Below, one piece after another: positions 17,080 to 20,287 of a stretch of DNA of 44,052 bases. Origin of the DNA: Bacteroidaceae bacterium. Lineage in GTDB: Bacteria; Bacteroidota; Bacteroidia; Bacteroidales; Bacteroidaceae. Location of the stretch: assembly GCA_017470525.1 (NCBI GenBank), contig JAFUYM010000002.1, positions 1 through 44,052 of the forward strand. Direction: 5' to 3'. Numbering within the stretch: position 1 is the first letter of the stretch; every line of letters begins with the position of its first letter. A model generated the notes under the pieces. That model made no database searches, was not told the origin of the DNA, and was given only the letters and a program-made list of their open reading frames with translations. The position numbers were made by a program, and so were the translations under genes.

Positions 17080-19101
17080 ATGAAGACAATTGCAAAAACA
17101 ATGATGATTTCAGCACTTTTGGCTGTGGGCAGCAGTTGCACGAACACCCAACAGCAAGGCATGCTTCCAGATGCATCGGAAGGAGACTTTGAGTACAACA
17201 ACGAGCGATTTGCAGATTTGCAGATGCTGCGCTATCGCGTAGATGGGTTTGAAGACCTCACGCTGAAGCAGAAGACGTTCATCTACTATCTGCAAGAGGC
17301 GGCATTGTATGGACGCGACATCCTGTTCGACCAGAATGGCAAGTACAACCTGAGAATCCGAAAGATGCTGGAGGATGTGTATGTCAACTACCAAGGCGAC
17401 CGCGAGGACAAGAACTTCGTCGCCATGGAGGAGTATCTGAAGCGTATGTGGTTCAGCAATGGCATTCACCACCATTATGGCTGTGAGAAGTTTGTGCCAG
17501 GATTCACGAAAGAATGGCTGCAAGGACAGACGGAATTATCTGATGAAATCTCAGAGGTTATCTTCAATCCCAACGTGATGCAGAAGCGTGTGAACCTGGC
17601 AGAAGGACAAGACTTGGTGAAGACCAGTGCCAGCAACTATTACGAGAATGTGACACAGGAGGAAGCCGAAGAGTTCTATGCCAAGCAGAAGGCAGCGGGT
17701 GACACATTGCACCCCGTGATGTATGGCATGAATTCACGTCTCGTAAAAACAAAAAATGGCGATTTCATCGAGAAAAAATGGACAAGTGACGGATTGTACG
17801 GGGCTGCCATCCAAAAGATTGTGGAGAACCTGAAACTGGCACGTCCATACGCAGAGGATGAGAAGCAGCAGGAAGTGATTGACCTGTTGGTGTCTTACTA
17901 TGAGACAGGCGACTTGAAGACTTTCGACAAATATTCGATTGCATGGGTGGAGAATACGAACCCATTGGTGGATTTTGTAAACGGTTTCATCGAGTGTTAT
18001 GGCGACCCACTGGGCTTGAAATGTTCGTGGGAGAGCATCGTGAATTTTAAAGATTTGGAGGCAACGAAGCGGACGGAATTGCTGAGTGCCAATGCCCAGT
18101 GGTTTGAAGACCATTCGCCTGTGGCTCCGGAATTTAAGAAGGAGAAGGTGAAGGGCATCACGGCAAAGGTCATCAAAGCCGCGATTTTGGGTGGCGACCT
18201 CTATCCCTCGACTGCCATCGGCATCAACTTGCCCAACAGCGATTGGGTTCGTGCCGCACATGGTTCAAAGTCGGTGACAATTGGCAACTTGACGGACGCT
18301 TACAACAAGGCAGCCAAGGGCAGCGGCATGTTGCAGGAGTTCGCCTATGGGAAAGAAGAGATTGAGTTGGTGGAGAAATATGGCGATTTGACCGACGATT
18401 TGCACACAGACCTGCATGAGTGTCTCGGACATGGCAGCGGCAAATTGTTGGAAGGCGTGGATGGTGACAGCCTCAAGGCATACGGCAGCACGATTGAAGA
18501 GGCTCGTGCCGACTTGTTCGCGCTGTACTATCTGGCTGACCCGAAACTGGTGGAATTGGGGCTTGTGCCCAATGCCGACGCTTACAAGGCAAGTTACATC
18601 GCACAGATGCAGAACGGACTTATCACTCAGTTGGTGCGCATCAATCTCGGCAATAACATTGAAGAGGCACACATGCGCAACCGCGCGTTGATTGCTCGCT
18701 GGGCGTATGAGCACGGAAAGAAAGACAATGTGATGGAACTGGTGAAGCGTGACGGCAAGACTTACGTGAAAATCAATGACTATGAGAAGTTGCGTGGATT
18801 GTTTGGCGAACTGTTGGCTGAGATTCAGCGGGTGAAGTCAACAGGCGACTTCAAGGGTGCTCAAGCGTTGGTGGAAACGTATGGTGTGAAGATTGACCCT
18901 GAGTTGCACAAGGAGGTGCTTGACCGTTATGCAAAACTCAACATCGCTCCTTACAAGGGTTTCATCAATCCTGTCTATACGGCAGTTCGTGACAAGGACG
19001 GCAACATCACTGACGTAACGATTTCTTATACAGAAGGCTATGCAGACCAGATGCTCCGCTACAGCCGAGACTATAGTGTGTTGCCTTTGGTGAATGAGTA
19101 G
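17080..19101 (+). CDS. M49 family (dipeptidyl peptidase III-like) zinc metallopeptidase, lipoprotein
   Basis: The product is 673 aa. The N terminus (ISALLAVGSSC) is a lipoprotein signal. The M49 zinc motif HECLGH is at 446-451 (H446 and H451 ligands, E447 catalytic), and the second motif EEARAD (473-478) supplies the third ligand E474. This is the HExxGH ... EExRA(D/E) signature of dipeptidyl peptidase III, which removes dipeptides from oligopeptides. The family is often cytosolic; here the lipobox points to envelope attachment, probably periplasmic. It follows the proteases and peptide-type SusCD pairs, which fits stepwise breakdown of imported peptides (inference). It ends 5 bp before the inverted repeat of the GxxExxY cassette. 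Confidence 0.92.
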   Translation: MKTIAKTMMISALLAVGSSCTNTQQQGMLPDASEGDFEYNNERFADLQMLRYRVDGFEDLTLKQKTFIYYLQEAALYGRDILFDQNGKYNLRIRKMLEDVYVNYQGDREDKNFVAMEEYLKRMWFSNGIHHHYGCEKFVPGFTKEWLQGQTELSDEISEVIFNPNVMQKRVNLAEGQDLVKTSASNYYENVTQEEAEEFYAKQKAAGDTLHPVMYGMNSRLVKTKNGDFIEKKWTSDGLYGAAIQKIVENLKLARPYAEDEKQQEVIDLLVSYYETGDLKTFDKYSIAWVENTNPLVDFVNGFIECYGDPLGLKCSWESIVNFKDLEATKRTELLSANAQWFEDHSPVAPEFKKEKVKGITAKVIKAAILGGDLYPSTAIGINLPNSDWVRAAHGSKSVTIGNLTDAYNKAAKGSGMLQEFAYGKEEIELVEKYGDLTDDLHTDLHECLGHGSGKLLEGVDGDSLKAYGSTIEEARADLFALYYLADPKLVELGLVPNADAYKASYIAQMQNGLITQLVRINLGNNIEEAHMRNRALIARWAYEHGKKDNVMELVKRDGKTYVKINDYEKLRGLFGELLAEIQRVKSTGDFKGAQALVETYGVKIDPELHKEVLDRYAKLNIAPYKGFINPVYTAVRDKDGNITDVTISYTEGYADQMLRYSRDYSVLPLVNE

Positions 19102-19106
19102 GATTT

Positions 19107-19174
19107 TCGCCTTCGGCGGACGAAGAAAAAACAGATAAAAACAAATAAAAATAGATAAAAATATTTTCTTCTTG
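19107..19174 (+). repeat. left 68-bp inverted repeat of the GxxExxY cassette
   Basis: The outer end contains a small hairpin (CGCC-TTC-GGCG at 19108-19118). Compared with the right arm it has three substitutions and no gaps. It lies directly after the M49 gene and directly before the cassette gene. Confidence 0.9.
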
Positions 19175-19182
19175 AGTGGGGT

Positions 19183-19614
19183 ATGGAAATAAGGGAATTT
19201 AGGGATAGAGAGTTGAAAGAGAAACTGAAAAAGTTTGTCTATGACATTGTGGGGTGTTGCCAGGCAGTGCATAAAGAAAAAGGACCTGAATTGACAGAAT
19301 ACGTGTATCAAGAGTGTTTAGAAATGGCATTCCAAGATGCAAATATAGAACACATCAGAGAATACTCTTTCCACCCCACCTTCAGAGGCAGAACACTCAA
19401 GAGCCGTCTCCAAGTGGATTTTTTCTGTAAGAAGAAAGTTTTTGTGGAGTGTAAGGCCATTGAGGAACTCAGCAACTACGAGCGCATACAACTGACAAAT
19501 TACATGCGTAATGCAGGTGTCCGTATCGGCATTCTCTATAATTTTGCCCCCATCATGGCTGAATGTGAAAAGTACTACTACAATCCCGAGGATAACACCA
19601 TCAGTTATTTCTAA
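19183..19614 (+). CDS. GxxExxY family protein, PD-(D/E)XK nuclease-like
   Basis: The product is 143 aa, close to the usual family size. The family helix appears as KGPELTEYVYQECLEMAF (33-50), followed by a strand with REYSFHPTFRG and then VDFFCKKKVFVECKAI (78-92). D79, E89 and K91 form a D-x9-E-x-K pattern like the PD-(D/E)XK nuclease core. In the name-giving motif, the usual Gly appears as Glu (ELTEYVY). No biochemical function is established that I can rely on; a nucleic-acid-related role is inferred from the fold pattern. The gene sits alone between 68-bp inverted repeats: the start is 8 bp after the left arm and the stop is 5 bp before the right arm. Confidence 0.85.
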   Translation: MEIREFRDRELKEKLKKFVYDIVGCCQAVHKEKGPELTEYVYQECLEMAFQDANIEHIREYSFHPTFRGRTLKSRLQVDFFCKKKVFVECKAIEELSNYERIQLTNYMRNAGVRIGILYNFAPIMAECEKYYYNPEDNTISYF

Positions 19615-19619
19615 TTTCC

Positions 19620-19687
19620 CAAGAAGAAAATATTTTTATCTATTTTTATTTATTTTTCTCTATTTTTTCTTCGTCCGCCGAAGGCGA
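19620..19687 (-). repeat. right 68-bp inverted repeat of the GxxExxY cassette
   Basis: Inverted copy of 19107-19174 with three substitutions. Its outer end lies 9 bp before the start codon of the DNA alkylation repair gene (19697), so the insertion may affect or supply the expression signals of that gene. Confidence 0.9.
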
Positions 19688-19696
19688 TAAACAACT

Positions 19697-20287
19697 ATGG
19701 TACAAGACATTATCAATGACATCAAGAAGGAGTTGAGAGCGAACATGAACGGGGTGGCTTCGGCACATGCGAGACAGACGGAAGACTACCGCGTGAATTG
19801 GGGCGTGGAACTGCCAAGATTGGCGAACATTGCCGATGAAATCGAAGAAAATGCAGCAGAAGCATCCTTACGAGAGTTGGCACAGGCTTTGTGGAAGGAC
19901 AGTACGAGGGAATGTAAGATTTTGGCTTGCATGCTGATGCCAGCGGAGGCGTTTTTGGAAGAGGTGTGCGACATCTGGGTGGAGAGCATCCGCACGGAGG
20001 AAATCGCGACGATGTTCTGCCTGTACCTGATGCCTCGACTCCCATACGCCAGCGTGAAAGCCTACGAATGGATGGCAAGCGAACAGCAGATGTTGCAGAA
20101 TTGCGGATTCCTGACCCTTTGCCACCTCATCAGGAAATTCCCGCTCAACGAGAGTGCCGAAGCAGAATTTCTGGATCAAGCCGCCGCCTCACTCGACAAT
20201 CGTTATGCCATCAAGGCACTACAGATTTATGCCTCCCTGAGTGAAGATAACGCTCGGAAAGTCAAAAAAGTGGCTGATTTCTTGTAA
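19697..20287 (+). CDS. DNA alkylation repair (AlkD-like) HEAT-repeat protein
   Basis: The product is 196 aa and all-helical. It resembles the short AlkD-like family: RVNWGVELPRLANIADEI (about 32-49) corresponds to the 'G-(V/I)-x-x-P-x-(L)-R' entry motif, followed by repeated amphipathic helices (ELAQALWKDSTRECKILACML; ATMFCLYLMPRLPYASVKAYEW; ALQIYASLSEDNARKVKKVADFL given in part). AlkD glycosylases remove N3/N7-alkylated bases. The catalytic aspartate and tryptophans of characterized AlkD enzymes cannot be assigned with certainty here, so activity is uncertain. It follows the GxxExxY cassette and is upstream of a Fur-family gene in the same direction. Confidence 0.75.
   Translation: MVQDIINDIKKELRANMNGVASAHARQTEDYRVNWGVELPRLANIADEIEENAAEASLRELAQALWKDSTRECKILACMLMPAEAFLEEVCDIWVESIRTEEIATMFCLYLMPRLPYASVKAYEWMASEQQMLQNCGFLTLCHLIRKFPLNESAEAEFLDQAAASLDNRYAIKALQIYASLSEDNARKVKKVADFL

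Follow-up and report, generated by a model that had tools for sequence, protein, structure and literature searches.

A class of one-gene hairpin elements very probably exists in the phylum Bacteroidota, each element consisting of a single small open reading frame (ORF) between long inverted arms made of short tandem units. The example described here lies in a 44,052-nt stretch of DNA from a Bacteroidaceae bacterium (the window), where it carries a GxxExxY gene, and it is well supported that the enclosing-arm layout is general to the GxxExxY family in this phylum. As a whole, the observations are best explained by selfish hairpin elements that are serviced by their own nuclease, an explanation which we place just short of an even chance.

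Anatomy of the cassette and its product

The cassette has inverted arms of 71 nt that are 94% complementary and 445 nt apart, and one ORF nearly fills the interval between them (Table 1). A preliminary description had reported inverted repeats matching at 65 of 68 positions with margins of 8 and 5 bp to the gene; these repeats are contained in the 71-nt arms, and the coordinates and both margins are correct. The arm alignment scored 61, compared with a best score of 12 in 100 dinucleotide shuffles, and the outer 19-mer, at up to three mismatches, has two occurrences in the window and none in 100 shuffles. Each arm carries the outer mini-hairpin CGCC-TTC-GGCG followed by A-rich units every 10 bp, and the RNA fold of the cassette is far better than that of shuffles (z −10.1). 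As had been proposed, the genes on either side match peptidase M49 and the AlkD-like family, and both lie on the same strand as the GxxExxY gene. The possibility that the repeats are merely terminators was rejected, with 0 terminator-like sites found in positions 18900–19900.

Table 1. Coordinates of the cassette and of the genes beside it, in window positions
Feature	Coordinates	Strand	Basis
Peptidase M49 gene, upstream neighbor	17080..19101	+	PF03571, ORF
Left arm, inverted repeat	19104..19174	+	94% complementary to 19620-19690
Outer mini-hairpin CGCC-TTC-GGCG, left arm	19108..19118	+	Sequence; in other copies the stem is kept and the letters differ
A-rich 10-bp tandem units, left arm	19127..19161	+	Direct repeats, spacing 10
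GxxExxY protein gene, 143 aa, putative PD-(D/E)XK nuclease superfamily	19183..19614	+	ORF, TIGR04256, PF13366
Right arm, inverted repeat	19620..19690	-	Inverted-repeat search
T-rich 10-bp tandem units, right arm	19631..19667	-	Direct repeats, spacing 10
Outer mini-hairpin, right arm	19676..19686	-	Sequence
DNA alkylation repair (AlkD-like) gene, downstream neighbor	19697..20287	+	PF08713, ORF

The window protein matched the TIGR04256 profile with 96.2 bits (cut-off 35) and the PF13366 PDDEXK_3 profile with 94.7 bits (cut-off 22), which upholds the original description of the gene as PD-(D/E)XK-like. In alignments of 13 and of 42 GxxExxY proteins, the residues E, D, ExK, Q and Y are invariant in the order E...D...ExK...QxxxY, a pattern which we take to be the RecB/Cas4-like set. 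Judged from sequence, the product is a putative PD-(D/E)XK-superfamily nuclease; we know of no function for GxxExxY proteins. They are common: of 296 sampled genomes of the phylum, 149 have a match over the cut-off. With the GxxExxY protein of one locus (L097) as query there were no matches in phages, and a query from a genus relative matched only eight plasmid records. The sole match among solved structures, at E 0.23, is not relevant.

Purifying selection acts on the GxxExxY gene in nine of the 12 gene pairs compared: dN/dS was 0.04–0.10 in eight pairs and 0.27 in one very close pair. The other three pairs are saturated, including the window gene versus that of genome G018 (pN 0.12, pS 1.0).

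Arms around GxxExxY and S23p genes

We searched for enclosing inverted repeats around GxxExxY genes in a genus sample (the best match from each of 29 other genomes plus those of the source genome) and in a phylum sample (30 of 152 genomes with a match). The genus is placed in the Bacteroidaceae (Bacteroidota) by a record whose GxxExxY protein is 100% identical to the one in genome G014. Shuffles and shifted windows served as nulls because a cross-pairing null was inflated by shared arm families. When each neighborhood was counted once, 15 of 18 genus neighborhoods beat 200 shuffles (shifted windows, 2 of 36), as did 17 of 25 phylum neighborhoods (shifted windows, 0 of 50). Per locus, all 100 shuffles were beaten at 30 of 33 genus loci and at none of 29 AlkD control loci, and shuffles were beaten at 22 of 30 phylum loci (shifted windows, 0 of 60). 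Among named records, nearly all of them Prevotella or Bacteroidaceae, 75 of the best 80 of 472 loci beat shuffles (shifted windows, 2 of 149). Three GxxExxY loci were dropped: L004 and L006, whose scores equal those of L003 and L005 and which lie on a second contig, and L096, which was short. Inverted repeats thus enclose most GxxExxY genes tested, bearing out the earlier suggestion that gene and repeats form one package.

The source genome has seven GxxExxY matches. All five that were tested lie in inverted repeats, whose sequence differs between loci, and the other two repeat the scores on a second contig. A pair of GxxExxY loci 2.5 kb apart is present on each of contigs C45 and C54 of genome G000 with equal scores, which may reflect redundancy in the assembly. 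On plasmids, arms were significant at two of four loci from Bacteroidota and at none of four from other phyla. By eye, the repeat motifs flanking GxxExxY on a Fusobacteria plasmid (L259) and on a P. nigrescens plasmid (L260) look direct, not inverted.

The genes of a second small protein share this layout: those of S23p (PF05635), which is encoded in 23S rRNA intervening sequences (IVSs). Enclosing repeats were found in 14 of 16 S23p neighborhoods of the genus (shifted windows, 1 of 32), corresponding per locus to 24 of 26, and at 19 of 30 loci of the phylum (shifted windows, 1 of 60). Short loci (L113, L117, L129 and L131) were dropped, and L126 was also dropped from the neighborhood count. 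The source genome itself has no match to S23p. At the gathering score, Rfam gave no matches in 12 GxxExxY loci, the window's included, and eight S23p loci, so that these 20 loci are not in rRNA.

Arms vary in sequence between loci and consist mostly of short tandem units, and the length of the unit tracks the protein, being mostly 9–10 bp for GxxExxY and 7 or 14 bp for S23p. Of 96 GxxExxY arms, most of them from one orthologous site, 70 had a best period of 9 bp and 13 one of 10 bp; the best period of 22 S23p arms was 7 bp in eight, 14 bp in five, 10 bp in five, 9 bp in three and 5 bp in one. Across the phylum, 20 GxxExxY arms had a best period of 10 bp (10 arms) or 9 bp (two arms), with the remaining eight scattered, and 16 S23p arms had one of 14 bp (nine), 8 bp (four) or 7 bp (three).

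Both arms of an element change together. Among the best 80 of 472 loci, 55 could be typed in both arms, and in 51 of them the left and right unit types were concordant, whereas shuffling gave a mean of 19.4 and a maximum of 32; these loci are not independent, because most share one site. On a protein tree built for this orthologous site (66 loci), a tree with few alignment columns, the 46 concordant rows need at least seven changes of type; four of the remaining rows are discordant and 16 are untyped on at least one side. Mismatches between arms showed no clear excess of G-U over A-C (50 versus 38, 26 versus 31 and 53 versus 77), which speaks more for upkeep of the arms at the level of DNA than for a stem in the sense RNA. 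Selection for sense-RNA pairing was accordingly rejected.

The elements have a marked orientation, their gene pointing the same way as the operons that hold them. With one locus taken per neighborhood and neighbors required to have 100 aa or more, both neighbors were in the sense of the gene in 13 of 18 GxxExxY loci of the genus, 17 of 25 of the phylum and all 16 S23p loci of the genus, and sense outnumbered antisense 46 to 0 overall. A looser ORF limit gave 48 sense and one antisense, and the 30 S23p loci of the phylum, not thinned by neighborhood, included 24 sense and one antisense. A control set of 29 DDE transposases had six sense and one antisense, too few to compare (Fisher p 0.13). Its upstream neighbors were also mostly in sense (17 of 23; elements, 52 of 56), and the bias may therefore be partly a general one; what remains would be explained by read-through expression or by RNA-coupled insertion.

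The orientation and the S23p parallel raise an alternative in which the element works at the level of RNA, as in 23S rRNA IVSs: the arms would form a double-stranded stem in the operon transcript that is cut by RNase III, and both spread and orientation would depend on transcription. It is favored by the 46-to-0 sense bias, by the RNA fold of the cassette, and by S23p, the IVS protein, having the same layout with 7- or 14-bp units; the Coxiella IVS, in the part of its description available to us, likewise has a 28-bp stem and heptamer repeats before the S23p ORF (PMC4990558). According to the same source, what rRNA intervening sequences and S23p do, and where they came from, is still unclear after 25 years. 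Yet the arms have no clear G-U excess, the 20 loci scanned against Rfam are not in rRNA, and sense orientation can also follow from a need for read-through expression. We regard an RNA-level element as unlikely.

Gene-less copies, insertion sites and flanks

A search of the source genome (3.24 Mb, 83% complete) for the outer end, proposed in the preliminary description, recovered 35 copies of the outer 20-mer at up to three mismatches and none of its reversed form. A second end type occurs 14 times. Eight paired copies, 93 to 414 bp long, are hairpins without a gene and account for 15 of the 35 ends; of the others, several form mini-hairpins or are paired with an end of the second type. The stem of the end hairpin is kept while its letters vary (CGCC/GGCG, ACGC/GCGT, CACC/GGTG and others), and in genome G018 one element has two unlike ends, each of which still folds. 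One element, in genome G003, has both arms intact and its gene reduced to residues 1–20 and 118–143, which are adjacent in the DNA; it is a deletion form intermediate between gene-bearing and gene-less copies. In genome G015, two ends 1.5 kb apart were considered as an element of insertion sequence (IS) size and proved to be two separate gene-less hairpins flanking an argininosuccinate synthase gene. At locus L300 of genome G035 (295–576), a hairpin with ACGAAT-type arms is nested at the apex of a hairpin with A-rich arms.

Some gene-less copies lie within further repeats. Genome G007, an 83% complete assembly with only distant GxxExxY matches, holds 32 end copies, including eight pairs about 130 bp apart. 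By eye, its gene-less copies L275–L286 are nested in ACGTGAGTTCGRTRTAAGA terminal repeats, and L275 and L281 have identical 10-bp flanks; this family is probably a conventional MITE with the hairpin inside. The gene-less hairpins of the source genome sit in at least three different outer repeats (by eye). There, L031, L033, L036, L039, L041, L042 and L044 show the same inner hairpin within differing outer inverted repeats, which include AAGTTTCGG..., GGATAATTTTGTCCTATT... and AAGCCAAATGCCTTTA. The nesting in G007 and the different outer repeats in the source genome indicate that helpers probably account for some of the spread of gene-less copies.

These copies are the evidence for a further alternative, namely that ordinary transposases mobilize the hairpins as miniature transposons, acting on the outer terminal repeats, and that GxxExxY was caught inside. 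Against it, no outer terminal repeats were seen by eye around 21 genus cassettes, GxxExxY genes across the phylum are enclosed by differing arms, and the unit length follows the protein. No known transposase lies in the cassette, whose interior-filling ORF is GxxExxY. Two transposase families were covered in the source genome: PF01609 had no matches, and the one Y1_Tnp gene found had no ends within 1.5 kb at up to five mismatches, so that the RAYT/REP reading was rejected. A passenger role for GxxExxY is quite improbable.

The peptidase M49–AlkD site was compared in 37 of 40 genomes with an AlkD match (G005, G033 and G039 were left out). A GxxExxY cassette is present in three (G000, G018 and G025) and gene-less repeat hairpins of different kinds, identified by eye, in another three (G003, G020 and G037); G012 has just a 23-bp hairpin, each half of which matches one of the two ends. 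The remaining 30 have no cassette, gene-less hairpin or end hairpin, and in 21 of them the two genes overlap; one of the 30, G016, has another small hairpin. With 34 of 37 genomes having no gene at this site, the condition that the preliminary description named as refuting it, a gene here in all relatives, does not apply. The pattern is compatible both with shared descent and with repeated insertion.

The flanks bear on whether the cassette is, as first suggested, a minimal mobile element. Across 92 loci the longest word shared by the two flanks averaged 5.52, versus 5.14 when permuted (sd 0.10), with no consistent length. In 33 genus and phylum loci it was 4.85 versus 4.51 (5 of 200 permutations as high) and in 59 named loci 5.90 versus 5.50 (1 of 200 as high), and shared base composition could be the cause. 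The suggestion stands as to a packaged unit, which may move with a helper or by its own nuclease, and the small excess of shared words may or may not reflect a target duplication. No sister pair showing a site before and after a move was caught among the compared genomes.

GxxExxY elements occur in many different neighborhoods. One site nevertheless predominates among the named records: in 66 of the best 80 of 472 (L138–L217), the gene that directly follows the element encodes a 2-oxoacid oxidoreductase beta subunit, a pattern more like residence than movement. At L188, the locus whose upstream side was checked, the element is preceded by the alpha-subunit gene and so lies between korA- and korB-type genes. 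The site is occupied in many Prevotella and Bacteroidaceae genomes, with the arm unit type changing. Vertical descent was considered for 64 loci of this site; the distance correlation (r 0.21, versus 0.145 for the largest of 500 permutations) is weak, and the strong conservation of the beta subunit prevents a decision. That GxxExxY is a resident operon gene serving the host, for example in repair or defense, with the arms as regulatory or processing signals, is very doubtful, for although it suits this predominant site, the low dN/dS and the scarcity of phage and plasmid matches, it sits badly with the patchy M49–AlkD site, the many neighborhoods and the gene-less and gene-deleted copies.

A proposed mechanism and its relation to known systems

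We return to selfish elements serviced by their own nuclease. That the nuclease would recognize and process its own arms is the simplest reading of three features: a unit length specific to the protein, arms that change in concert, and the conserved residues. The gene would be expressed by read-through of the host operon, and its product would recognize the repeat units of its own arms and cut or process the hairpin or cruciform that they form. Such processing may copy the element to new intergenic sites in operons, one arm may serve to correct the other while the element is folded, and the gene-less hairpins would be non-autonomous derivatives. Several results weigh against this explanation: the words shared by the flanks have no consistent length, no sister pair straddling a move was seen, G007 has many ends but only distant GxxExxY matches, one site predominates among the named records, and arms were significant at none of the four plasmid loci from other phyla. 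We are somewhat more hesitant about the step in which the GxxExxY nuclease is the element's own mobilizing enzyme, and suggest it as a real possibility. More tentatively again, we speculate that GxxExxY and S23p elements form a new single-gene class of mobile element, whose ends would be short-repeat arrays with a protein-specific period, which would insert in sense into operons and keep its arms identical through the folded hairpin; 23S rRNA IVSs would then be its rRNA-borne branch and GxxExxY its PD-(D/E)XK mobilizing nuclease.

The cassette resembles 23S rRNA IVSs in that a long inverted-repeat stem carries a single small ORF in its loop, and the S23p relatives of the genus and the phylum share its layout. 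Short tandem units also stand beside the ORF in Coxiella, as far as the available part of that account goes (PMC4990558). In contrast, the IVS ORF encodes S23p, a four-helix bundle, whereas the cassette encodes GxxExxY of a putative nuclease superfamily, with units mostly of 9–10 bp and with the scanned loci outside rRNA. MITEs are dispersed short inverted-repeat elements, and the cassette likewise has terminal inverted repeats; a Porphyromonas gingivalis MITE even contains a tandem repeat (minisatellite), according to the portion of the report available (PMC4596501). Unlike MITEs, the cassette has its interior filled by a conserved gene, and its arms differ between copies. The end mini-hairpins, beside a CGTC/GACG tetranucleotide and often in inverted pairs, recall REP/RAYT systems and CGTC-tagged REPs, but the REP stem is 8–9 bp, in the part of the description at hand (PMC3733652), versus 4 bp in the cassette mini-hairpin, and the one Y1 transposase gene found is without these ends. 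The window protein is a member of TIGR04256 and PF13366 above both cut-offs, families that are defined by the protein alone, without enclosing repeats. Nor are enclosing repeats described in the accessible portions of the open-access papers naming GxxExxY (PMC8934634, PMC12085832).

Because GxxExxY and S23p elements share an architecture and a protein-specific period, the questions that surround the two proteins can be tested by one experiment. If the protein binds and processes its own repeats, the cassette would be a very small autonomous element and would embody a new way of holding two DNA arms identical. That most GxxExxY genes of related bacteria lie in long inverted repeats points to a common, little-noticed minimal genetic element.
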